Positions 1-32,282 of a stretch of 32,655 nucleotides of DNA are shown in pieces. The stretch spans positions 1 to 32,655 of the forward strand of contig JALWFG010000009.1 of NCBI GenBank assembly GCA_027038965.1, written 5' to 3'. The notes beneath the pieces were generated by a model. That model was not told the origin of the DNA and did not search any database. It saw nothing but the letters and a program-made list of their open reading frames with translations. The translations under genes were made by a program, and so were the position numbers. Positions within the stretch are counted from its first letter, which is position 1, and every line of letters starts with the position of its first letter. Source of the DNA: Candidatus Desulfofervidaceae bacterium (GTDB taxonomy: Bacteria > Desulfobacterota > Desulfofervidia > Desulfofervidales > Desulfofervidaceae).

Positions 1-240
1 CCAGCCAAACTGGACGTTGGGATATCGATTGGAAAAGCTATTATAAAGGCGCCTGTAATTTTGCCTAAGCCTTTTTTCTGAAAATACAAATTGAGGACTA
101 CCGTACATTTCTACCAATTTATCAATAAACACTCCGTCTATAGCCTGCCGAATGTGGCTTAAATAGCCCCTGCCAAATTTATTCATAAACCCCATTTGGA
201 GCTTTTTTATAACTGGTTTTTCGTAATTTTTTTTAACCAT
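1..240 (-). CDS. PLP-dependent decarboxylase, LysA/ornithine decarboxylase-like (N-terminal 80 residues; runs off the window)
   Basis: The frame stays open from an ATG at 240 to the window edge. The visible part contains the stretch LVEMYGSPQFVFSEKRLRQN, followed by YRRLYNSFSNRYPNVQFGW. This matches the start of the alanine-racemase-fold barrel of fold-type III PLP decarboxylases (diaminopimelate, ornithine or carboxynorspermidine decarboxylases), where the next motif would hold the PLP lysine (outside the window). A 40-residue N-terminal extension (MGFMNKFGRGYLSHIRQAIDG) precedes the barrel, as in LysA-like enzymes that sit beside ATP-grasp genes rather than housekeeping LysA. The ATG lies 1 nt after the stop of the ATP-grasp gene, so the two are translationally coupled. 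Family is fairly sure; substrate is unknown. Confidence 0.8.
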   Translation of the reverse strand, partial: MVKKNYEKPVIKKLQMGFMNKFGRGYLSHIRQAIDGVFIDKLVEMYGSPQFVFSEKRLRQNYRRLYNSFSNRYPNVQFGW

Positions 241-241
241 T

Positions 242-1279
242 CTAGCGCTCTCCTTTGGTAATAATATTCTGGAATACAGACATGTCTGTAACTATATCGT
301 AGGTGTAGCGCACATAAAGCTTTCCTGCTGGATAATCCCTAGGACTTTTTAAGGGCAAACCAAAGGCCGTCTTTACCATAGTGGCAGGCAAATTAACCCC
401 TACCCCAGTGGCAAAGTAAACCCAAGCGGGAAAACGAGGATTAATCTCTATCAGATAGACATCATCTGCCGAAACAATACACTCCAATTCAAAGGCCCCT
501 TTCCAATTAAACTTTTGCACAAACTTCTTGGCCGCCTTTAAAAGAACATCGTTTTTAACAGTCACCCCTGTCCATATCTTCCCCAAACTTGTAATCCATA
601 GCTTTTTTATGGCCACAAGCCCCAGGTCATTTCCCAATCCATCCCCTACTCCAATAACATTCATCTCTTCCCCAGTCACTACCTGTTGGACAACCACTGG
701 ATATCCCCATTCAGCGACAATCTGACGGAAATATCCAACTGCTTCCTGATAGGTATAGGCTCGGTAGGCCTTATAAAATACCCCCTTAACCATTACTGGC
801 AATCCAATCTCTTCAATGGCCTTCATCAAATCTTGATAAGAGGCAATTGTTTTAGTTTTAGGCATCTTAAGACCAATTTTTTTAGCTACCTGTGGTAATT
901 TTGTCTTTCCCCGCAAGTCAAATTGTTCCTTGGTTGGCAAAAAGGTCTTAATCCCCTGAGATTCTAAAAGAGGGGCCGCTTTAATATAAAGGGGCATTTC
1001 AGCATCTAAGGTAGGAATTATCATATCCAAACCGACTTTATCCTTTAAATAGATTAAACGTCCAATATACTCTTCTTCGGAACTGGAAGGATAAGGCAAA
1101 ACAAAGGCCTTATCCACCAGCCAATCCATATATATCCCTGGTTCCATAGCATCATAGGCCAACCCGATGGCCTCTATCTTCAAATCTTTGTCTTCTTTCA
1201 AACTCCTAATGACCCCAACACCAGGGCCTGGATTATCCACGGCATTGATTCCTGAAACTCCTATGCAAAGTCTTTCCAT
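242..1279 (-). CDS. ATP-grasp ligase, CarB/biotin-carboxylase-like
   Basis: 345 residues. The N-terminal part (1-120) looks like a pre-ATP-grasp Rossmann domain (LCIGVSGINAVDNPGPGVGV). A small lid follows with the ATP-binding lysine region GLPVMVKGVFYKAY (about 160-173). The catalytic metal-binding segment is FELECIVSADDVYLIEINPR, ending in the E-I-N-P-R signature that coordinates Mg2+. It is shorter than carbamoyl-phosphate synthase halves and lacks a biotin carboxylase C-domain, so it is a stand-alone ATP-grasp that probably joins a carboxylate to an amine through an acyl phosphate. It lies 13 nt after the PqqD-like gene and 1 nt before the decarboxylase. This arrangement suggests formation of a modified amino acid or peptide; the substrate cannot be read from the sequence. 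Confidence 0.85.
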   Translation of the reverse strand: MERLCIGVSGINAVDNPGPGVGVIRSLKEDKDLKIEAIGLAYDAMEPGIYMDWLVDKAFVLPYPSSSEEEYIGRLIYLKDKVGLDMIIPTLDAEMPLYIKAAPLLESQGIKTFLPTKEQFDLRGKTKLPQVAKKIGLKMPKTKTIASYQDLMKAIEEIGLPVMVKGVFYKAYRAYTYQEAVGYFRQIVAEWGYPVVVQQVVTGEEMNVIGVGDGLGNDLGLVAIKKLWITSLGKIWTGVTVKNDVLLKAAKKFVQKFNWKGAFELECIVSADDVYLIEINPRFPAWVYFATGVGVNLPATMVKTAFGLPLKSPRDYPAGKLYVRYTYDIVTDMSVFQNIITKGER

Positions 1280-1292
1280 TCTCTAAAGCCCC

Positions 1293-1529
1293 TTAAATTA
1301 ACCTATAAGAACGCAACTGTTCCATAAAATCCATCAGATCCCGACTGGCACTCTCTTTATCTATCCCATACTCCTCGGTTAGCAGGTCCACAATCTCCTT
1401 TTCTTCCCTCCCTTCTTTAAGGGCCTCCAAAATAAAAAGACCCGTCCCATTTGTGGTAAAACTGTTTCCTGTGACAGGATCAAAGATAAAACCCTCTTCA
1501 CTAATGGCCAATTGCTTCAATCTTTCCAT
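1293..1529 (-). CDS. PqqD-family small protein (peptide-chaperone-like)
   Basis: 78 residues, stand-alone. The pattern is typical of PqqD: EEGFIFDPVTGNSFTTNGTG, then a helix (LFILEALKEGREEKEIVDLL), then a winged-helix-like end (YGIDKESASRDLMDFMEQLRSYRLI). In RiPP pathways PqqD proteins hold the precursor peptide for the modifying enzyme; others are linked to ATP-grasp or HprK-like proteins. The start is supported by GAGGAG a few bases upstream. A candidate promoter lies in the 83-nt gap after the MFS gene. It precedes the ATP-grasp by 13 nt, and both proteins begin with the same MERL residues. No precursor peptide was recognised in the visible part. Confidence 0.85.
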   Translation of the reverse strand: MERLKQLAISEEGFIFDPVTGNSFTTNGTGLFILEALKEGREEKEIVDLLTEEYGIDKESASRDLMDFMEQLRSYRLI

Positions 1530-1564
1530 AACACTCCTCGGCGATTTAAAGTAATACCTTGGCT

Positions 1565-1592
1565 ATTTTAAATAGAATACAGTAAAAATCAA
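1565..1592 (-). promoter_or_regulatory. Candidate sigma70 promoter of the PqqD/ATP-grasp/decarboxylase cluster
   Basis: Minus strand: TTGATT (1592-1587), 16-nt spacer, TAAAAT (1570-1565). The predicted start near 1558 gives a leader of about 30 nt before the PqqD ATG. If real, the three-gene cluster can be expressed separately from the MFS gene upstream. Confidence 0.4.
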
Positions 1593-1612
1593 CACATTAA
1601 GATTGAATTTGG

Positions 1613-2752
1613 TTAATTAGGCATAAGAATCAAAAATAATACATTACTCAACAGCCCAAAGATACCTGCAAAATAAAAGATGGCAGATATTCCTATAGTG
1701 TCCATAACAAAGCCCAATACGATAGGGGAAAGCATCATACCTACACTCATAGCCATATTAAAAATGCTCATAGAAGCAGCCATTCCGGTTTCTTTTCCTA
1801 CCACTACTATAATCGCAGCCGCAGCGGGCATAGCAACCGCACCACCTATTCCCATAAGCGCACCTACTACCAAAAGTTGAGAAAAATTATTACAAAAAGG
1901 GAAAAGCATTAAGGAGATAGAAGCCACCAACGAACCCAAAAATACGAGGTAAAATCTGTTATATCTATCCGCCAAAACTCCAAAAAGTCTTTGAAAAAGG
2001 CCCGTGATAAAGATAATAACAGAAATTAGCAAACCTATCTGAGCGGGTAATATAGAAAATTTGGCTGCCAAAATTGGCAAAAAGGTCATAATCCCGCCTC
2101 TACCTATGGCATTGGCCATCCGAAACACAAAAAGGGCCCTAATAATTTTATTTTTTAAAATTTGTCTCAAAGAAATATTTTTCTTTTTTATCTGATGGTG
2201 AGTTTTTATTTCAGGTAAGAACAAAAGGGTGATAAAAAAGGCCATAAGGCTTAAAAGAGACATGGTAAAAAAGGCCATTTTAAGGCCAAATTTATCGTTT
2301 AAGAGCCCTCCCAGAAAAGGCCCTGTCCCCATACCTAAAAAAAGGGCAAGGGTAAAGGTTGCCATAGTTCTTCCCTCTTCTCCCTTTTTGGCAATATCCC
2401 CAATATGGGCCATAGCAATAGGAAGCACCATGGCCGAAGCAAAACCGTGAAATAAACGAATACAAACAAGTTGAGACACGCTTTGGGCAAAGGGATAAAA
2501 TAAAGAAACTAGGGCATAAAGAAACAGGCCAGTTATAATAAAGGGCTTTCTTCCATTTTTATCAGAAAATTTCCCAATGATGGGCATAAAAACAATTCTA
2601 GATAAGGAAAACCCTGAAAATATAATTCCTAAGCTCACACCTGTAGCCCCAAGGCTTTGGGCATAAATGGGCATCAGAGGAACAATAATGCCCAATCCAA
2701 TCATAGTAACCAAAATGGCAATAAAAAGGATATTAAAGATTCTTTGATTCAT
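1613..2752 (-). CDS. MFS transporter, 12-TM drug/metabolite efflux type
   Basis: 379 residues from the ATG at 2752 (MNQRIFNILFIAILV). The frame opens further upstream only through a TTG at 2788 that coincides with a -35-like TTGACA, so the ATG is preferred. About 12 hydrophobic segments are visible. The MFS signature between TM2 and TM3 is present as GKFSDKNGRKPFI, and a motif-C-like glycine-rich stretch (LGMGTGPFLGGLL) in TM5 points to an H+-driven exporter of the TetA/MdtG type. It is co-oriented with, and 83 nt upstream of, the PqqD/ATP-grasp/decarboxylase genes, so it could export their product. This link is inference; a candidate internal promoter leaves them separable. Confidence 0.85.
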   Translation of the reverse strand: MNQRIFNILFIAILVTMIGLGIIVPLMPIYAQSLGATGVSLGIIFSGFSLSRIVFMPIIGKFSDKNGRKPFIITGLFLYALVSLFYPFAQSVSQLVCIRLFHGFASAMVLPIAMAHIGDIAKKGEEGRTMATFTLALFLGMGTGPFLGGLLNDKFGLKMAFFTMSLLSLMAFFITLLFLPEIKTHHQIKKKNISLRQILKNKIIRALFVFRMANAIGRGGIMTFLPILAAKFSILPAQIGLLISVIIFITGLFQRLFGVLADRYNRFYLVFLGSLVASISLMLFPFCNNFSQLLVVGALMGIGGAVAMPAAAAIIVVVGKETGMAASMSIFNMAMSVGMMLSPIVLGFVMDTIGISAIFYFAGIFGLLSNVLFLILMPN

Positions 2753-5753: not shown

Positions 5754-7298
5754 ATGAAAAAACTTCCCATAGGTATTCAGACATTTAGTGAGATAATACA
5801 AGAAAATTACTACTATGTGGATAAAACAGAGTTTGCATACAAACTTATCACAAAAGGTAAGTATTATTTCTTATCCCGTCCCAGACGATTTGGCAAATCC
5901 CTCTTTCTGGACACACTGGCAGAGATATTTTCAGGCCATAAGACACTATTTAAAGGCCTGTATGTTTATGACAGGTATGACTTCACACCTCATCCAATTA
6001 TAACGATATCGTTTGGTAGTGGAGATTATTCAACTTCTATAGAACGAATAGAAAGGAAGATAGGCTGGATACTTGAAAGAAATCAGAATGAGCTAAAGAT
6101 ACAATGCGAAAAGACTCAAAACGAGGAATGTTTTGCAGAGCTTATAGAAAAGGCCTACCGCAAATACAATCAGCGAGTAGTTATTCTTATAGATGAATAT
6201 GATAAACCCATTCTTGATAACATTACGAACAAAGAGGTAGCAACAGAGGCAAGAAATATACTGAAGAACTTTTACAGTATTATTAAAGACCACGATAGAT
6301 ATATCAGGTTTGTCTTTATTACAGGAGTATCAAAGTTTTCAAAACTAAACCTGTTTAGCGGTTTGAATAATTTAGAGGATATTACCATAAATAAGGAATA
6401 TGCTGAGATATGCGGCTATACTCATGATGACCTACTGACTGTCTTTAAAGACAGACTAGAGGGTGTCAACTTGAACCTGGTCAAGAAGTGGTATAATGGC
6501 TATAGCTATTTCGGCAAACCTCTTTATAATCCCTTTGATATACTTTTGTTTCTCTCAGCCGGTCATGACTTCAGAAATTACTGGTGGCAGACAGGCAATC
6601 CTTCATTTCTTATAGAAAAGCTCAAGGAAGAAAACTATTACATTCCAGAGCTTGAGAATGCCTTAATCTCAGAAGAGACACTGGAAACCTTTGATGTGGA
6701 ATACATAGACCTGAGGGCACTTCTCTGGCAGACAGGATATTTGACAATCAAAGAGAGACTAACAGATGATACAGGGAGTAACCTATACAGACTCTCTGTC
6801 CCCAACCTTGAGGTTCAGTTTTCCCTAAACAGGCTATTTATAGACTACCTCACAAACCAGAGGATAGAAAAGACAAGGTATGAGCTTAATATAAAGAATG
6901 CCTTGAAGGAAAATAACTTTGACTCATTCATAAATTACCTGAAGACCATCTTTGCAACCATCCCATATCAAAACTATGCCAACAATATTATATCCAAGTA
7001 TGAGGGATACTATAGCAGCGTCATTTTTGTCTATCTTATGGCACTGGGTTATGATCTTATACCCGAAGATATAACAAATAAAGGGAGGATAGATTTAACC
7101 TTAAAGATGAAGGACAAAATTCTCATCATAGAGTTTAAAGTTGATGGACAGAAAGAGAAACCCATAAAGCAAATTAAACAAAGGAAATATTATGAAAAAT
7201 ACTTGCAGGAGAATAAAGAGATCTATCTACTTGGAATAATATTTGATTCCGAAGAAAGGAACATAAGAAAGTGGGAAATAGAAAGAGTGAATGGGTGA
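5754..7298 (+). CDS. AAA-ATPase-like / PD-(D/E)XK nuclease-superfamily protein
   Basis: 514 residues. The N-terminal domain begins LPIGIQTFSEII, typical of the PF09820-type AAA-ATPase-like family. It has a P-loop SRPRRFGKSLFL (Walker A 42-49) and Walker B VVILIDEYD (142-150). The C-terminal domain carries the PF08011-type nuclease core: D447 in GRIDLTL, then E460-F-K462 in IIEFKV, matching the D...E-x-K pattern. Such genes are often multicopy and patchily distributed; their role is unknown and toxin or defence functions are guesses. A good ribosome site (AAGGGGGG) precedes the ATG. The stop is only 3 nt from a palindromic repeat also found at 2872. Codon choice (ATA, AGA, AGG rich) is more AT-rich than its neighbours, which suggests acquisition. 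Confidence 0.9.
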   Translation: MKKLPIGIQTFSEIIQENYYYVDKTEFAYKLITKGKYYFLSRPRRFGKSLFLDTLAEIFSGHKTLFKGLYVYDRYDFTPHPIITISFGSGDYSTSIERIERKIGWILERNQNELKIQCEKTQNEECFAELIEKAYRKYNQRVVILIDEYDKPILDNITNKEVATEARNILKNFYSIIKDHDRYIRFVFITGVSKFSKLNLFSGLNNLEDITINKEYAEICGYTHDDLLTVFKDRLEGVNLNLVKKWYNGYSYFGKPLYNPFDILLFLSAGHDFRNYWWQTGNPSFLIEKLKEENYYIPELENALISEETLETFDVEYIDLRALLWQTGYLTIKERLTDDTGSNLYRLSVPNLEVQFSLNRLFIDYLTNQRIEKTRYELNIKNALKENNFDSFINYLKTIFATIPYQNYANNIISKYEGYYSSVIFVYLMALGYDLIPEDITNKGRIDLTLKMKDKILIIEFKVDGQKEKPIKQIKQRKYYEKYLQENKEIYLLGIIFDSEERNIRKWEIERVNG

Positions 7299-7328: not shown

Positions 7329-7524
7329 GAGTACTCCCTTGCTGATGATATATATACCTTAATTCTCCTCCAGACAAAGTGAGTAAATCATCTTAAAAGG
7401 CGGCTTTTAAGAAAAGGTCTTTCATTTTTTTGGAAAGTTCTATAACCAAATTTGGTTCAAAAGCAGCCTTGCCATTCCTAGGGACATGCGATAGAATGGG
7501 CTGCAATTCTTGAGGATTGAAGCT

Positions 7525-9834
7525 ATGGTCTATAAAAATATCCTTTCCTTAATTGGAAATACGCCTATTGTTGAGCTTTCAAAGCTTAATCCCAACCCTA
7601 GGGTAACTATTCTGGCCAAGTTGGAAATGTTTAACCCCGGCGGCTCTATCAAGGACCGAGTCGCCTTGGCCATGATTGAAGGAGCTGAAAAAGCAGGCCT
7701 GCTTGACAGGGGCAAAATTATCATTGAAGCCACGAGCGGCAATACAGGAATTGGGCTGTCCATGGTCGCAGCAGTTAAAGGCTATAGAATTGTTTTGGCC
7801 ATGCCTGAATCCGTCAGTCTTGAAAGAAGGCGCATCTTACGTGCTTATGGGGCTGATTTACTTCTTACCCCTGCCCATCTTGGAACAGATGGAGCCATAG
7901 AAAAGGCCTATCAGTTGGCTAGAGAAAATCCTGACAAATATTACCTAACCGATCAGTTCAATAATCCCTTCAACTGGCAAGCACATTATTATGGGACTGC
8001 CCCTGAAATATGGGAACAAACAGGCGGCAAGGTAGACATGGTGGTTGCGGGTCTAGGGACCACAGGGACTGCTATGGGAATCTCACGTCGCCTTAAGGAG
8101 TATAACCCAAAGATAAAAATGGTTGGAGTAGAACCATATCCCCAGGAAAGAATTCAAGGACTTAAGAATCTTAAAGAGTCTTATGTTCCTGGAATTTATG
8201 ACAAAAATTTATTGGATGAAAAAATAAATGTCCGCCTAGAAGATGCCATCAAAACCGCTAGAAAGCTCGCGAAAGAAGAAGGTATCCTAGTAGGAATGAG
8301 CTCTGGAGCGGCTATGTATGCCGCTATCCAGAAGGCCAAAGAATTAAAGTCAGGAATTATTGTTGTTATCTTTCCTGATGGGGGCGAGAGGTATTTAAGC
8401 ACCTCCCTCTTTGTAGAAAAACCCGCTTTAACCATAAGGCTTTACAATACCTTAAGTCGAAAAAAGGAGTTTTTGCAACCCTTAAAACCCGGAGAGATAA
8501 GCCTTTACTCCTGTGGTCCAACGGTTCATGATGTGCCTCATCTCGGGGTTTGGAGGCGGTTGATTGTTTCTGATTTGTTAAAAAGGTACCTTGAATTTAA
8601 GGGGCTTAAAGTCAAGCATGTCATAAATATTACAGATATTGATGATAAAACCATTGCCAAGGCCATCAAAGAAAATAAGCCTCTCAAGGAAATCACCCAG
8701 TTTTATACTCAAGTGTTTCTGAAAACGGTTGAGATCCTTGGAATAAAGCCTGCCGATTATTACCCTTTGGCAAGCGAACATGTCCCTGAAATGCTAAAGA
8801 TTGCCGAACATCTTCTTCAAAAGGGGTACGCCTATGAAAAACATCACTCCATTTATTTTGATATCACCCGATTTAAAGAATATGGCAAACTTTCCCATAT
8901 CAATTTGGAAAAGATTAAGGTAGGATTGACGGTTGACCTAGACAGTTACGAAAAGGAAAATCCAAGAGATTTCACCCTTTTAAAGCGGTGTACTCTTCAG
9001 GAACTAAAGGCAGGAATATATTACGACACTCATTGGGGAAAGGTTCGGCCTGGTTGGCATATTGAATGCGTGGCCATGGCCATGAAATATCTAGGCGAAA
9101 TAATAGATATCCACACTAGTGGAAAGGATCTGATCTTTCCTCACAACGAGAATGAAGTTGCCATTGCTGAAGCCTTTACAGGAAAAATCTTTTCCAGATA
9201 TTGGATCCATAGTGAACTCGTCTTTGTAGATGGGAAAAAAATGTCTCGGTCCTCTGGCAATTATGTTACCATAGAGAATCTCCTGGCCAAGGGATACAGC
9301 CCTCAGGAAATTCGTTATTTTTTCATAGTCACTCATTATCGCAAGCCCCTTCAGTTTTCCTTTAATGCCTTGAATGCTGCCAGGCTTGGCCTCCAAAAAC
9401 TCCAAAGTTTTATCTTCGCGCTTTTAGCCCTGCCACCCGGCCCCTCATATAAAGGACTTGATAAAGAAATAACTACTCTAGAACAAGGGTTCACAAAGGC
9501 CATGGATAATGACTTAAATGTCTCTAGTGCCATGGCAGCCCTTTTTGACTTTGTGAGAAAGATGGATCCTGTAGTAAAGAATAAGGGCATAAGCGAGATG
9601 GATAAAGAAAACATTTTGAAGACCCTGAAGAAGATAAATGAAGTTTTAAATATCTTTGTCTTTGAGCTCCCGGAGATAGATTCAAAAATTAAGTCCCTTA
9701 TAGATGAAAGGAATAAGGCTAGAACAAACAGGGATTGGGAAAAGGCAGATAGAATCAGAAAGGAAATCGCCCAAAAGGGTCTTGTGTTGATAGATACCCC
9801 ACGAGGCACCTTTTGGTGCAAGAAAGGTGCTTGA
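7525..9834 (+). CDS. Cysteine synthase / cysteinyl-tRNA synthetase fusion (CysK-CysS)
   Basis: 769 residues from the ATG at 7525 (MVYKNILSLIGNTPIVELSK), 9 nt after GAGG; an upstream in-frame TTG (7510) is less likely. Residues 1-295 are a complete O-acetylserine sulfhydrylase: the PLP lysine lies in NPGGSIKDR (K43), the substrate loop is EATSGNTGIG, and the PLP phosphate loop is GLGTTGTAMG. After a short linker, residues about 302-769 are a full class I cysteinyl-tRNA synthetase: the zinc cysteine in YSCGPTV, HLGV in the HIGH position, NITDIDDK, GWHIECVAMA, FPHNENE and KMSRSSGN. The junction has no frameshift and no internal start. One polypeptide would make cysteine and load it on tRNA(Cys). 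The synthetase HIGH variant is unusual. A separate cysS elsewhere cannot be excluded. Confidence 0.93.
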   Translation: MVYKNILSLIGNTPIVELSKLNPNPRVTILAKLEMFNPGGSIKDRVALAMIEGAEKAGLLDRGKIIIEATSGNTGIGLSMVAAVKGYRIVLAMPESVSLERRRILRAYGADLLLTPAHLGTDGAIEKAYQLARENPDKYYLTDQFNNPFNWQAHYYGTAPEIWEQTGGKVDMVVAGLGTTGTAMGISRRLKEYNPKIKMVGVEPYPQERIQGLKNLKESYVPGIYDKNLLDEKINVRLEDAIKTARKLAKEEGILVGMSSGAAMYAAIQKAKELKSGIIVVIFPDGGERYLSTSLFVEKPALTIRLYNTLSRKKEFLQPLKPGEISLYSCGPTVHDVPHLGVWRRLIVSDLLKRYLEFKGLKVKHVINITDIDDKTIAKAIKENKPLKEITQFYTQVFLKTVEILGIKPADYYPLASEHVPEMLKIAEHLLQKGYAYEKHHSIYFDITRFKEYGKLSHINLEKIKVGLTVDLDSYEKENPRDFTLLKRCTLQELKAGIYYDTHWGKVRPGWHIECVAMAMKYLGEIIDIHTSGKDLIFPHNENEVAIAEAFTGKIFSRYWIHSELVFVDGKKMSRSSGNYVTIENLLAKGYSPQEIRYFFIVTHYRKPLQFSFNALNAARLGLQKLQSFIFALLALPPGPSYKGLDKEITTLEQGFTKAMDNDLNVSSAMAALFDFVRKMDPVVKNKGISEMDKENILKTLKKINEVLNIFVFELPEIDSKIKSLIDERNKARTNRDWEKADRIRKEIAQKGLVLIDTPRGTFWCKKGA

Positions 9835-28585: not shown

Positions 28586-28691
28586 TTTTATAGGTGTTTC
28601 CAAATACCGCCTGCTGGGGAGTGGAATACCTTAAATGGCGGCTAATAAATACCCCAGCCCAGATGGTATTTGTCTGGCCATTCAGGGACCA

Positions 28692-29129
28692 ATGTTAAAA
28701 ACCGAGCGGGGATTCACCCTATTGGAGTTGATGATTGTTGTGGTCATTTTAGGCATTTTAGCCACTTTTTTAATGCCTAAGATTATGCAAAAACCTGATG
28801 AGGCTAGGATAGTAAAGGCAAAAAGTGATATTAAGGCCATAGAATTGGCCCTTAAGATGTATAAACTTGATAACGGCATGTATCCCACCACAGAGCAAGG
28901 ATTAAAGGCACTTATAGAAAAACCAGAAATTCCCCCTATTCCCCAACACTGGAAGGAAGGAGGTTATCTGGATACAGGTAGCATTCCTAAAGATCCATGG
29001 GGCCATCCCTATATCTATCGTAGTCCTGGTGATAATGGTCGTGATTATGAGATTATCTGCCTGGGGGCAGATGGAAAAGAGGGGGGAACAGGGGTCAATG
29101 CCGACATTAAAAGCTGGGAGCTGCATTGA
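28692..29129 (+). CDS. gspG: Type II secretion major pseudopilin GspG
   Basis: 145 residues from the ATG at 28692, chosen because it gives the usual short prepilin leader MLKTERG before [16 protein letters not shown] (Glu5 conserved). An in-frame ATG at 28635 would add 19 residues. The globular part has the GspG block [20 protein letters not shown] and the C-terminal calcium loop [17 protein letters not shown]. The leader peptidase (GspO/PilD) cuts after the Gly. It assembles the periplasmic pseudopilus. It overlaps gspH by 4 nt. Confidence 0.95.
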
Positions 29130-29530
29130 AACAGGGATTTACCTTAATTGAAGTCGTTGTTATCATGGCCATTTTAACCGTGGCCCTTGTTGCCTTTGTG
29201 CCCAAAATGACCTCTTTTTTTACGGAAAAAGCCAATAATCCCGCCATTGAGTTATTGAATCGCTTGACCCAAAGGGCATTTGAAGAGGCCCGGGAAAGCC
29301 ATTGTCCCATTGCTATCTGGGGGACAAAGGGGTCAAATCACATCTATTATGCTAATAAACAATACACACTTCCTTACGATGTATTTGATGTCAAGGTAAA
29401 CAGAAATTATCAAGAAGGGTTGAGGTATTATTTTTTAATCTATCCTTGCGGAATTATGGATCAGGTAAAGGTTACATTTGGCAATGGCAAAACGATTGAC
29501 TCTCTACCTTTATTGCTCAGGTGGAGATAA
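29126..29530 (+). CDS. gspH: Type II secretion minor pseudopilin GspH-like
   Basis: 134 residues, TTG start overlapping the gspG stop (TTGA). The very short leader MKQG is followed by [20 protein letters not shown]. The globular part is small and beta-rich, without a strong family signature, so the GspH name rests on position between gspG and gspI. It overlaps the annotated gspI start by 53 nt. Confidence 0.8.
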
Positions 29531-29861
29531 AAAAGGATTCAGCCTGTTAGAAGTGCTTATAGCCTTGGCCATCTTTGCCATTTCTGCCTTTGGTATTTAT
29601 GGCCTTTTAAATGAGTGCATTTATGCCCAGAACTTTGCCCAAAGGCGTTTAGAGCTCGTTCTAGCCTCTACCAACTTAATCTTCCCGGCCATAAATAACC
29701 TACCTGAACCCACAGACGGATGGGTATATTTAGAAGACAATCCTGACATAGAGGCGCAGCGGATTAGTAAAGAGAGCACAGGTATGTATGGAATTATTAA
29801 AACAGAGTGGGATTTCAAAAAAGGGAAAATAACGATTGGTTATACATTTTATGAGAAATAA
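29478..29861 (+). CDS. gspI: Type II secretion minor pseudopilin GspI-like
   Basis: 127 residues if started at the ATG at 29478; a TTG at 29496 is the latest possible start, since no start codon lies between it and the processing site. The leader is therefore unusually long (14-20 residues, ending GGDKKG) before FSLLEVLIALAIFAISAFGI. The rest (ECIYAQNFAQRRLELVLAST, then WVYLEDNPDIEAQRIS) fits GspI, a core component of the pseudopilus tip. It overlaps gspJ by 11 nt. Confidence 0.82.
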   Translation: MAMAKRLTLYLYCSGGDKKGFSLLEVLIALAIFAISAFGIYGLLNECIYAQNFAQRRLELVLASTNLIFPAINNLPEPTDGWVYLEDNPDIEAQRISKESTGMYGIIKTEWDFKKGKITIGYTFYEK

Positions 29862-30375
29862 AGGGGGTTTTACTCTGCTGGAGGTGCTGGTAGCTGTCGC
29901 CATCGCGGCTGTAATCATGGCTGGAGCATATAAAATTTTTTCAAATTTAATCCTTATAAGAGAACACTTCAAAGGTAAAAAAGACAAAATAGAAATCATA
30001 GCAAAGATGGTGTTGCTGATGCAGGCAGACATCAGGGGCAAGGTGGGAAAGTTTATAGTTAGAAAGGACGATGAGGGCGTTACTTACCTGGAATTTACAA
30101 CTACCCATTCTCTGTTTTTTAGTGGGGCTGTGCCGGTCAAGATCAGCTATTTTTTAAAGAAGGATGAAAATAACAGGCAATATCTCTATCGTAAGGAAAC
30201 AGATGTGGCAAGCGGAATAGACCTTTGTATCCCCCTAACTAACATGGTTCAAGGCATAGGCTACAAATTTTATCTCCATAATCACTGGCAGGACACACCC
30301 ACCAATCTCATTCAGGTATGTTTTAAGATACGCTCTGAAACATATTGCTTTGCCCAGAGGGGAATTGTTGAATAA
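29851..30375 (+). CDS. gspJ: Type II secretion minor pseudopilin GspJ
   Basis: 174 residues from the ATG at 29851 (MRNKGG-FTLLEVLVAVAIA), which overlaps the gspI stop and gives a normal leader; a TTG at 29836 would add 5 residues. The prepilin helix (AVIMAGAYKIFSNLILI) is followed by a GspJ-type segment (LMQADIRGKVGKFI, TYLEFTTTHSLFFSG). It forms the pseudopilus tip with GspI and GspK. Confidence 0.85.
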   Translation: MRNKGGFTLLEVLVAVAIAAVIMAGAYKIFSNLILIREHFKGKKDKIEIIAKMVLLMQADIRGKVGKFIVRKDDEGVTYLEFTTTHSLFFSGAVPVKISYFLKKDENNRQYLYRKETDVASGIDLCIPLTNMVQGIGYKFYLHNHWQDTPTNLIQVCFKIRSETYCFAQRGIVE

Positions 30376-31264
30376 CAAAGGTATTGTCTTGATCCTGGTG
30401 CTTGTTTTGGTGGCCAGTTGTGTGGCCGCCGTAGTGGTTATTACCTCATGGGTCTCAAGAAATTGCGATTGGTCGCAAAGGGTTTATACTGCCAATAAGG
30501 CCGGTATTTATATCCATACGGCCTTAAAGGCAGCAGCAAAATTGCTTGAAGAAGACGACAACCACTATGACTCACCAGATGACAACTGGGCAAAGTTACC
30601 TCCTCTGCCTATTAAAAATGGAGAAGTTATGGTTCAGATAATTCCTACAAACGCTAAAATTGACTTAAATCTATTTTTTACGCATAATAACAGCTTAAAA
30701 AGACGATTAAAAACGGCCATAGCCGACATTCTGGTGACACATGGGGTAGATGAAGAGGTATTAAATTATATGCAAGCATGGGTAGAAAAGGATGTAGATT
30801 ATGACGAGGCCTATTATTTAAGCCATCTGCCACCGTATTTGCCCAGAAAACAACCTTTTTATTCTTTAAAAGAAATAGACTTTATCAGGGCAATGGCCAA
30901 TTTTAGCAATCTCTTTCATGACTATTTTACCGTAGATGGTTCGCAGCGGATCAATATCAATTTTGCGTCTAAAGTAGTACTTCAGGCATATCTGCCTGAA
31001 ATTGAGCCCTCAATAGATGACCTTCTTTCTTATAGGCAAAAACACCCCTTTACAAACATCACTCAATTAAGAAATGTCGCAGGAATTACCGACGACATTT
31101 ATCTGGCGGTGCAACCATACATCACCACTGAAAGTGATAAATTTGCTGTCAGGATTGTCGTCAATATAGATAAATATGCTTATTGCGCCACGGCCTTAAT
31201 AAAAAGGCAGGGCAAAAGAACACAAATTTTGAAATATTTTGAAGGGAAAGGCTTTTATGAGTGA
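30368..31264 (+). CDS. gspK: Type II secretion minor pseudopilin GspK
   Basis: 298 residues from the TTG at 30368, chosen because AGAGGGG (30356-30362) lies 5 nt upstream and it matches the 8-nt overlap style; TTG at 30365 or 30350 are alternatives. The short leader NNKG precedes IVLILVLVLVASCVAAVVVI. As in GspK proteins, position 5 is not Glu. The large domain has the GspK blocks KIDLNLFF, DYDEAYYL and ININFASKVVLQAYLP, then a helix-hairpin-helix-like region (FTNITQLRNVAGI). It caps the pseudopilus. Confidence 0.88.
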   Translation: MNNKGIVLILVLVLVASCVAAVVVITSWVSRNCDWSQRVYTANKAGIYIHTALKAAAKLLEEDDNHYDSPDDNWAKLPPLPIKNGEVMVQIIPTNAKIDLNLFFTHNNSLKRRLKTAIADILVTHGVDEEVLNYMQAWVEKDVDYDEAYYLSHLPPYLPRKQPFYSLKEIDFIRAMANFSNLFHDYFTVDGSQRININFASKVVLQAYLPEIEPSIDDLLSYRQKHPFTNITQLRNVAGITDDIYLAVQPYITTESDKFAVRIVVNIDKYAYCATALIKRQGKRTQILKYFEGKGFYE

Positions 31265-32282
31265 GGTTGTGATTGCGGTTCTTCAAAATGGAGCTTGGCA
31301 ATTTTATAACGAAAAAATAGAGCCTATCAATCCCAAAAGGCTTGATGGTAAAAAGATATATGCCATTTTGCCAGACAACCTCTTTTATTTTTTTCAAACC
31401 GAGATCACTGCCAGAAAGCGAATCACCGAAACCGTGCGCGCCTATGCCAAAAACTGTTTCCCTTTAGAAGAAACTGACTTTGTGGGATATGTAAAAACCA
31501 AACCTATTCTTGGTTATATATTTAAGAGAGAAATTAATGGGCAGGAACTTATAAAAAAGGCGTCTCTTATTACCACTCCCCTTCTTATTCAATTCGTCTT
31601 AAAACACTCCCCTTTTATCTATGCCGCAAATGGCATCGTAGCCATTGTCAATAACGGCCTTCTAAGATACCTCCCTGGTGATGAAGACACGGCCAGGGAG
31701 CTTTTAAAAGGCATAGATAGCCCTTATACCCTGATTACCCCGGATATAAAAGACACCATCAAAGGTTTAATTAAGGCCCAAAAGGCCAAAAAGACAAAGC
31801 TACTTCACCTCAATGTGATGGATACCCCTTCTATTTCTGTTACCAAAAGCATTACCCTTGGCATTTCTATGTTAATCCTTATTATCTTCTGCCTTACAGG
31901 GGGTATCTTAAGATATAAGGTGGCCACCTCAAGGCTTAAAAATCTATCTCAAAGGATTGAAGCCATTTACGAACAGGCATTTAAAGGCAAGTCTTATCCT
32001 GATCCCTATGGCATGCTTTTATATAAGGCCAGAAGCTGCTCTTTGCAAAAGGGCATTCCCCCATTAAGATTGCTTTATATTTTAAGCCAGGCCCAAAACG
32101 GCCGCCTGAACATTGACCTGATTAGCTACAAAGAGGGCAAATACGAGCTTAAAGGTCAGACAGAGGATTATGATCGCCTTGTGAAATATGTAAATGCCCT
32201 TAAAAGATTAAAGGTGAAGGCCAAGATATTAAATACCACCTCCAAGGGTGGCAAACTTAAATTTAGCATTATGTGCAGGTAA
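31257..32282 (+). CDS. gspL: Type II secretion inner-membrane protein GspL-like
   Basis: 341 residues from the ATG at 31257 (MSEVVIAVLQNGAWQFYNEK), overlapping gspK by 8 nt; an upstream in-frame start (31239) is less likely. The cytoplasmic actin-like half (1-195) includes KKIYAILPDNLFYFFQTEIT. One membrane helix (ITLGISMLILIIFCLTGGIL, near 203-222) and a periplasmic ferredoxin-like part (INIDLISYKEGKYELKGQTE-like) follow. This is the GspL layout, though sequence identity to the family looks low. gspM would normally follow; instead an insertion sequence begins within about 5 nt of the stop. Confidence 0.8.
   Translation: MSEVVIAVLQNGAWQFYNEKIEPINPKRLDGKKIYAILPDNLFYFFQTEITARKRITETVRAYAKNCFPLEETDFVGYVKTKPILGYIFKREINGQELIKKASLITTPLLIQFVLKHSPFIYAANGIVAIVNNGLLRYLPGDEDTARELLKGIDSPYTLITPDIKDTIKGLIKAQKAKKTKLLHLNVMDTPSISVTKSITLGISMLILIIFCLTGGILRYKVATSRLKNLSQRIEAIYEQAFKGKSYPDPYGMLLYKARSCSLQKGIPPLRLLYILSQAQNGRLNIDLISYKEGKYELKGQTEDYDRLVKYVNALKRLKVKAKILNTTSKGGKLKFSIMCR

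Follow-up and report, generated by a model that had tools for sequence, protein, structure and literature searches.

The window analysed here is the whole of contig C9 (JALWFG010000009.1; 32,655 bp) from the genome of a Candidatus Desulfofervidaceae bacterium (2.19 Mb, 21 contigs). At its left end, three minus-strand genes encode a stand-alone PqqD protein, a CarB-like ATP-grasp ligase and a fold-type III decarboxylase dependent on pyridoxal phosphate (PLP), and the decarboxylase bears at its own N-terminus a leader motif of the kind found on lasso-peptide precursors. The tight packing described in the first-pass annotation is borne out by the coordinates, and the protein families by Pfam and NCBIfam, with gaps of 13 nt between pqqD and the ATP-grasp gene and 1 nt between the ATP-grasp and decarboxylase genes. 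Because contig C9 stops within the decarboxylase, no more than the left half of a six-gene cassette is present in the window. A second, complete copy on contig C14 continues with a urea-transporter/M23-peptidase fusion (UT-M23), an outer-membrane barrel and a tetratricopeptide repeat (TPR) protein (Table 1), followed by an aldehyde ferredoxin oxidoreductase gene. Over the ~130 bases leading up to the contig end, the two copies do not differ; the C9 break is thus located at a repeat, as is typical of repeat-induced assembly breaks.

A major facilitator superfamily (MFS) gene just upstream had been proposed as the exporter of the cluster. We reject it as a cassette member: it lies outside the duplicated unit, homology between C9 and C14 ending at about window position 1600, and among 87 related loci a single one has an MFS homologue close by. 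Scanning the region ahead of pqqD for promoters and terminators gave nothing informative.

Table 1. Features of the two cassette copies and their surroundings (aa, amino acids)
Feature	Position	Strand	Remarks
MFS transporter open reading frame	Window 2788/2752-1613	minus	TTG start at the 2788 end; family match; judged outside the cassette
Stand-alone PqqD/RiPP recognition element, 78 aa, lasso-B1 type	Window 1293..1529	minus	PF05402, 1.3e-16
CarB-like ATP-grasp ligase, 345 aa	Window 242..1279	minus	Pfam/NCBIfam; E266, E278, N280, R282 kept
Fold-type III PLP decarboxylase, N-terminal 80 codons	Window 1..240	minus	Partial at contig end; PF02784/PF00278 on C14 homologue L004
Predicted lasso-type leader motif, decarboxylase residues 6-23, YEKPVIKKLQMGFMNKFG	Window 172..225	minus	Conservation; motif class bound by discrete lasso recognition elements
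YxxPxI part of the leader	Window 208-225	minus	Within the decarboxylase N-terminus
Segment duplicated on C14 (1935-3533)	Window 1..1600	minus	95.2% identity; its end, shortly before the start of pqqD, marks the cassette boundary
pqqD	C14 2005-2241		Complete copy
ATP-grasp	C14 2255-3292		Complete copy
Decarboxylase, 452 aa (L004)	C14 3294-4652		Complete copy; PF02784/PF00278
Urea-transporter/M23-peptidase fusion, 690 aa	C14 4660-6732		PF03253 and PF01551 over cut-off
292-aa protein with signal peptide (barrel)	C14 6729-7607		Complete copy
TPR protein, 242 aa	C14 7624-8352		Complete copy

Conservation of the cassette

Relatives were collected by an ATP-grasp profile search of GTDB genomes, which returned 380 matches; locus statistics are drawn from the best 80. 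The gene order pqqD–ATP-grasp–decarboxylase–UT-M23–barrel–TPR recurs in ~80 loci from more than 10 phyla. Hosts among these best 80 belong to Aquificota, Desulfobacterota, Thermodesulfobacteria, Verrucomicrobia, Lentisphaerae, Planctomycetota and Gemmatimonadota, and further to Ignavibacteria/Kapaibacteria, WOR-3, Thermotogota, Nitrospinia, Thiotrichaceae and Wallbacteria. Phylum labels are those of the genome records, and a few metagenome bins (for example Klebsiella and Akkermansia) appear misnamed. The cultivated species Thermodesulfatator autotrophicus and Thermodesulfobacterium hydrogeniphilum are both among the carriers.

Counting only loci whose contig reaches far enough, pqqD adjoins the ATP-grasp gene in 75 of 76 and the decarboxylase gene does so in 72 of 74, so that the association is not due to chance and the three genes behave as the single unit that had been proposed. 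UT-M23 lies downstream in 55/62 informative loci. Where the locus lacked UT-M23 or ended too early, the fusion was encoded elsewhere in 9 of 11 genomes, and the decarboxylase was also present in four of the five such genomes searched for it. In Aquificota, parts of the cassette co-occur though unlinked. Among 395 genomes of the source phylum, the ATP-grasp occurs in 16, UT-M23 in 15 and both in 15; in the sixteenth ATP-grasp genome (G024), the contig ends inside the decarboxylase. Such co-occurrence shows a functional linkage that goes beyond adjacency, with the reservation that the genomes, from 11–12 genera, are related rather than independent.

Other conserved neighbours are lineage-specific only: sigma-54 regulators, DUF4405 proteins and, in Verrucomicrobia, S74 endosialidase-chaperone proteins. 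In Verrucomicrobia loci (L032 13891-16405 and others), the TPR gene is followed by two additional genes, one encoding such an S74 protein and one without a family. A locus in G024 (L020 1783-3923) contains two tandem ATP-grasp genes; its PqqD is longer and its leader has diverged (LKSVNKYAG). It may be a two-ligation variant, one that could give insight into the chemistry. A role in phage defence was considered and rejected, PADLOC giving no match.

The decarboxylase leader and PqqD

The N-terminal extension of the decarboxylase, earlier put at 40 residues, is real; it spans ~33 residues and forms a conserved, leader-like motif. Its near-invariant consensus is [KR]xYEKPVIxKLxxGxMNKFGxxPxYARKVRxxIDGV. 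In a set of 74 decarboxylase sequences, Tyr6 and Pro9 are each found in 73/73, residue 11 (+5) is Ile, Val, Met or Phe in 72/73, and Gly17 (71/73), Asn20 (70/74) and Lys21 (69/74) are nearly as constant. The YxxPx[L/V/I] pattern of lasso leaders is present on the decarboxylase N-terminus. Discrete lasso-peptide RiPP recognition elements (RREs; RiPP, ribosomally synthesized and post-translationally modified peptide) bind [Y/W]xxPx[L/V/I/F/A] (PMC13381572; also PMC6784204). In L096, L099 and L100, from Thermodesulfobacteria, the leader keeps YQKPTIxKLQVG, MNKFG is replaced (LREKK) and the rest of the operon is intact.

The nearest PDB matches to PqqD are the lasso RREs TfuB1 and TbiB1, and the protein has the features of a lasso B1-type RRE; its best NCBIfam match, NF033530, is under the cut-off (47 vs 70 bits). 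In LppB, Asp70 forms a hydrogen bond with the leader Tyr, both pockets are lined by Phe74, and the kink at the Pro is held in place by Asn33 (PMC13381572). The equivalent positions in 80 PqqD sequences, as judged from the alignment, are Asp64 (79/80), Phe68 (78/80) and Asn27 (60/80, with Ser in the remaining 20).

The first-pass annotation had suggested looking for a precursor peptide. A genome search with the leader recovered no free precursor carrying it; the only matches were the two decarboxylase copies, with the next at chance level. Because the leader is confined to the decarboxylase copies and the operon has no space for an additional gene, PqqD most likely has the tail of the decarboxylase itself as its natural partner. 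That PqqD would dock onto this leader tag is well supported by sequence. The lasso B2 leader protease (PF13471) is absent from the source genome and from seven of nine other cassette genomes.

Enzymes and envelope proteins

Decarboxylase domains were scored on the C14 copy, the window copy being partial. Compared with the PDB, the decarboxylase profile matches the N-citrylornithine decarboxylase FigC/FslC (7kh2, 5e-84) ahead of LysA (4e-63). The FigC-group signature is complete, with the PLP Lys, HIG, GGG, the catalytic Cys and the motifs GPxCM and VGAYN, the last two being common to FigC and the cassette enzyme. The substrate Arg of the LysA NDxxRPxxY motif is lost (NLLFTxxWY instead), as is the acidic residue that follows the catalytic Cys (CM, not CE), and the score against TIGR01048 (LysA) is 222.7 bits, under the cut-off of 297.9. 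A small tree was built from cassette enzymes, FigC, LysA, DokD and ornithine decarboxylase (ODC); BtrK, SbnH, AcsE and MccE are absent from it, and the L125 sequence, a defective long branch, was excluded from the final version. At a support of 0.996, LysA, DokD and ODC fall on one side and FigC together with the cassette enzymes on the other, and the cassette enzymes form a clade of their own. By these comparisons, N-citrylornithine decarboxylase is a closer counterpart of the cassette enzyme than LysA is. The FigC/SbnH/AcsE/MccE/BtrK subfamily decarboxylates conjugated amino acids (PMC7857480).

The cassette enzyme is not the only LysA-like protein of the genome. The housekeeping LysA sits on C15 in a dapF-dapA-dapB operon, on which ground we reject that role for the cassette decarboxylase, and an ODC-like gene lies beside a spermidine-synthase-like gene.

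In the ATP-grasp ligase the catalytic E/E/N/R set is conserved. Structure prediction for the C14 copy (pLDDT, a per-residue confidence score, of 92.6) gives a model that is closest in the PDB to 2pn1 (Z 31.2) and also matches PylC (Z 24.6–24.9). Because a FigC-like, conjugate-type decarboxylase is paired with an ATP-grasp ligase, ligation followed by decarboxylation would be the most economical chemistry.

The urea-transporter domain of UT-M23 matches PF03253 at 2e-64, and is under the cut-off for TIGR03441 (123.6 vs 274.6 bits). The M23 residues H350, D359, H434, H467 and H469, comprising the zinc ligands and catalytic His, are invariant in 63/63 sequences, and the domain should therefore be an active peptidoglycan hydrolase. 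The pore is altered: in the same sequences, Glu occupies the position of a DvUT Gln in 44/63, and Ala, Ser or Thr that of a DvUT Glu in 61/63. These DvUT pore residues are Q24 and E187. The 292-aa protein is predicted to form a 14-strand barrel (pLDDT 91.1), nearest to the CymA, OmpG and FadL-type pores. The barrel gene of at least one Verrucomicrobia locus codes for TPRs at the N-terminus as well. Together, UT-M23, the barrel and the TPR protein look like a conduit across both membranes with a wall-opening hydrolase.

The remainder of the window contains several further genes of note. A cysteine synthase (PALP, residues 12–290) is fused to a cysteinyl-tRNA synthetase (CysRS; residues 322–770) at 7510-9834 (plus strand); of the 29 genomes searched, ~14 have near-full-length fusions of this kind, in most cases together with a stand-alone CysRS (here on C7). 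A predicted AAA-ATPase_like and PD-(D/E)XK nuclease protein (PF09820/PF08011) is encoded at 5754-7298 (plus strand). At the right contig end (32327-32653, minus strand) lies a partial TnpB-like protein that includes a Cas12f1-like TNB zinc-ribbon domain (PF07282). Positions 28635-32282 (plus strand) hold a run of type II secretion pseudopilin-like genes, and C14 begins with a second GspG-like gene (41-472), close to the complete cassette copy.

Interpretation and comparison with known systems

We tentatively propose, with confidence slightly short of even, that the six genes encode a non-RiPP pathway that reuses the RiPP docking code, combining leader docking, a ligate–decarboxylate pair and passage through the envelope. 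The docking, reaction order, kind of product and direction of transport that we infer from the computed gene order, co-occurrence, leader, RRE residues, active-site signatures and folds would be as follows. The small PqqD would bind the YxxPxI-bearing tail of the decarboxylase and so hold the ATP-grasp ligase beside it. The ligase would take an amino acid and join its side-chain amine or carboxylate to another small molecule, and the FigC-like decarboxylase would strip the alpha-carboxylate from the conjugate to leave a small amide-amine. This product (or a substrate, if flow is inward) may cross the altered urea-channel protein with its periplasmic M23 hydrolase domain, and then pass through the 14-strand barrel with the TPR protein assisting. 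The first-pass annotation had a small metabolite built and exported. The building is plausible for an amino-acid-derived compound, since the nearest enzyme to the decarboxylase is FigC, which is of the conjugate type; the MFS exporter is replaced by UT-M23, the barrel and the TPR protein, which lie beyond the contig end. For the idea that an enzyme with a permanent RiPP leader as docking tag, read by a stand-alone PqqD, builds a small-molecule metabolon instead of maturing a peptide, linked to its own trans-envelope conduit in the form of a urea-channel/peptidoglycan-hydrolase fusion, we consider the chances evenly balanced.

Several observations weigh against this proposal. The barrel gene is adjacent in 35/54 informative loci and the TPR gene in 40/53, making them less constant neighbours, and the best-scoring 80 of the 380 matches over-represent close relatives. 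The pore of urea-transporter relatives is 2–3 Å wide (PMC10541013), which fits urea-like molecules better than a larger amide-amine. A partial Mantel test detected no covariation of leader and PqqD beyond that of the decarboxylase core (r = -0.05), a test of low power because both motifs are nearly invariant and leave little variation to co-vary.

The passive nature of UT channels, the prevalence of uptake and diffusion pores among OmpG/CymA/FadL-like barrels and the intact M23 residues would all suit an import system, in which barrel, M23 domain and urea transporter bring in a peptidoglycan- or urea-related nutrient for the cytosolic enzymes to assimilate or detoxify. We think this unlikely, as a ligase and a conjugate-type decarboxylase in one operon fit synthesis better, and neither a periplasmic binding protein nor degradative enzymes are among the conserved neighbours. 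A decarboxylase that serves as its own carrier seems to us less probable still. Here the ATP-grasp would load an amino acid onto the leader, for example at the Lys of MNKFG, with PqqD presenting it for decarboxylation in cis, much as BtrJ/BtrI/BtrK use a carrier protein. Conservation of the leader and MNKFG (N 70/74, K 69/74) goes far beyond what docking needs, BtrK decarboxylates carrier-bound glutamate (PMC7857480) and the cassette has no carrier gene. The Lys is, however, missing from the cassette-bearing loci L057 (MNPLG), L073 (MNTYA) and L096/L099/L100 (LREKK), which weakens the case for it as an obligatory acceptor, and no cytosolic releasing enzyme was recognised.

By fold and general family the protein could also be an ordinary LysA/ODC-like paralogue acting on amino acids or polyamines, with accessory proteins and PqqD as a regulator. 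This is improbable given the LysA and ODC-like genes already present, the replacement of the LysA substrate Arg and of the acidic residue following the catalytic Cys, and a leader conserved across phyla. More doubtful again is a true RiPP pathway with its precursor encoded elsewhere, the decarboxylase leader merely mimicking it. PqqD proteins usually serve RiPPs, and certain RiPPs have unlinked precursors, but the leader query and the distribution of the lasso protease, both described above, run counter to it.

RREs and leader peptides are regarded as hallmarks of RiPPs, and genome-mining tools treat a stand-alone RRE as marking a RiPP. RRE-Finder reported RREs of the lasso type that lack lasso machinery (PMC7470986). 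If correct, our proposal would describe an RRE-dependent pathway outside RiPPs, explain part of these orphan discrete lasso RREs and reassign part of the orphan PqqD proteins. A leader on an enzyme in a widespread cassette would show that the RRE–leader code also assembles enzyme complexes, and would supply a naturally evolved peptide tag and receptor pair, of which thermophiles would offer heat-stable versions. Organisms making the product would include Aquificota, Thermodesulfobacteria, Verrucomicrobia and Planctomycetes. Our literature search found no published work combining PqqD, ATP-grasp and decarboxylase with a urea transporter, or PqqD with a urea transporter, and the first-pass annotation was right to regard this gene set as unfamiliar.

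We file the system as a putative variant of RRE–leader docking, in which the RiPP-type leader sits on an enzyme. It resembles the discrete RRE/YxxP leader pairs of lasso systems (TfuB1/TfuA, TbiB1, PbaB1 and LppB/LppA) in PqqD sequence, in the Tyr-binding Asp and the pocket Phe, and in the YxxPx[I/V/M/F] motif. In lasso systems, however, the leader belongs to a core-peptide precursor, whereas here it is fused to an enzyme, and neither a precursor nor a B2 protease was found in the genome. Rhizoferrin biosynthesis by FigC/FslC and FigA, a synthetase of the NIS (nonribosomal-peptide-synthetase-independent siderophore) type, provides the nearest solved structure, the GPxCM and VGAYN motifs and the same ligate-then-decarboxylate logic. 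The partner there is an NIS synthetase, whereas the cassette ligase is an ATP-grasp and the cassette has no NIS gene; unlike FigC, the cassette enzymes have an extra leader tail and form a separate clade.

In butirosin biosynthesis, BtrJ is the ATP-grasp counterpart. The BtrJ–BtrI–BtrK set likewise couples an ATP-grasp with a decarboxylase of LysA fold, BtrK, whose substrate is a conjugated amino acid (for BtrK, PMC7857480), but the cassette has no gene for an acyl carrier protein-like partner, and in the PDB search BtrK has a clearly lower score than FigC. PylC, other CarB-like ATP-grasp ligases and 2pn1, uncharacterised by its title, share the fold of the cassette ligase at ~16–19% identity. 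The envelope fusion has domains over cut-off in common with the urea transporters DvUT, UT-A and UT-B and with M23 peptidases, including intact M23 catalytic residues; it differs from both in joining the two domains in one protein, and from DvUT in having Glu and Ala in most members at the equivalents of Q24 and E187.

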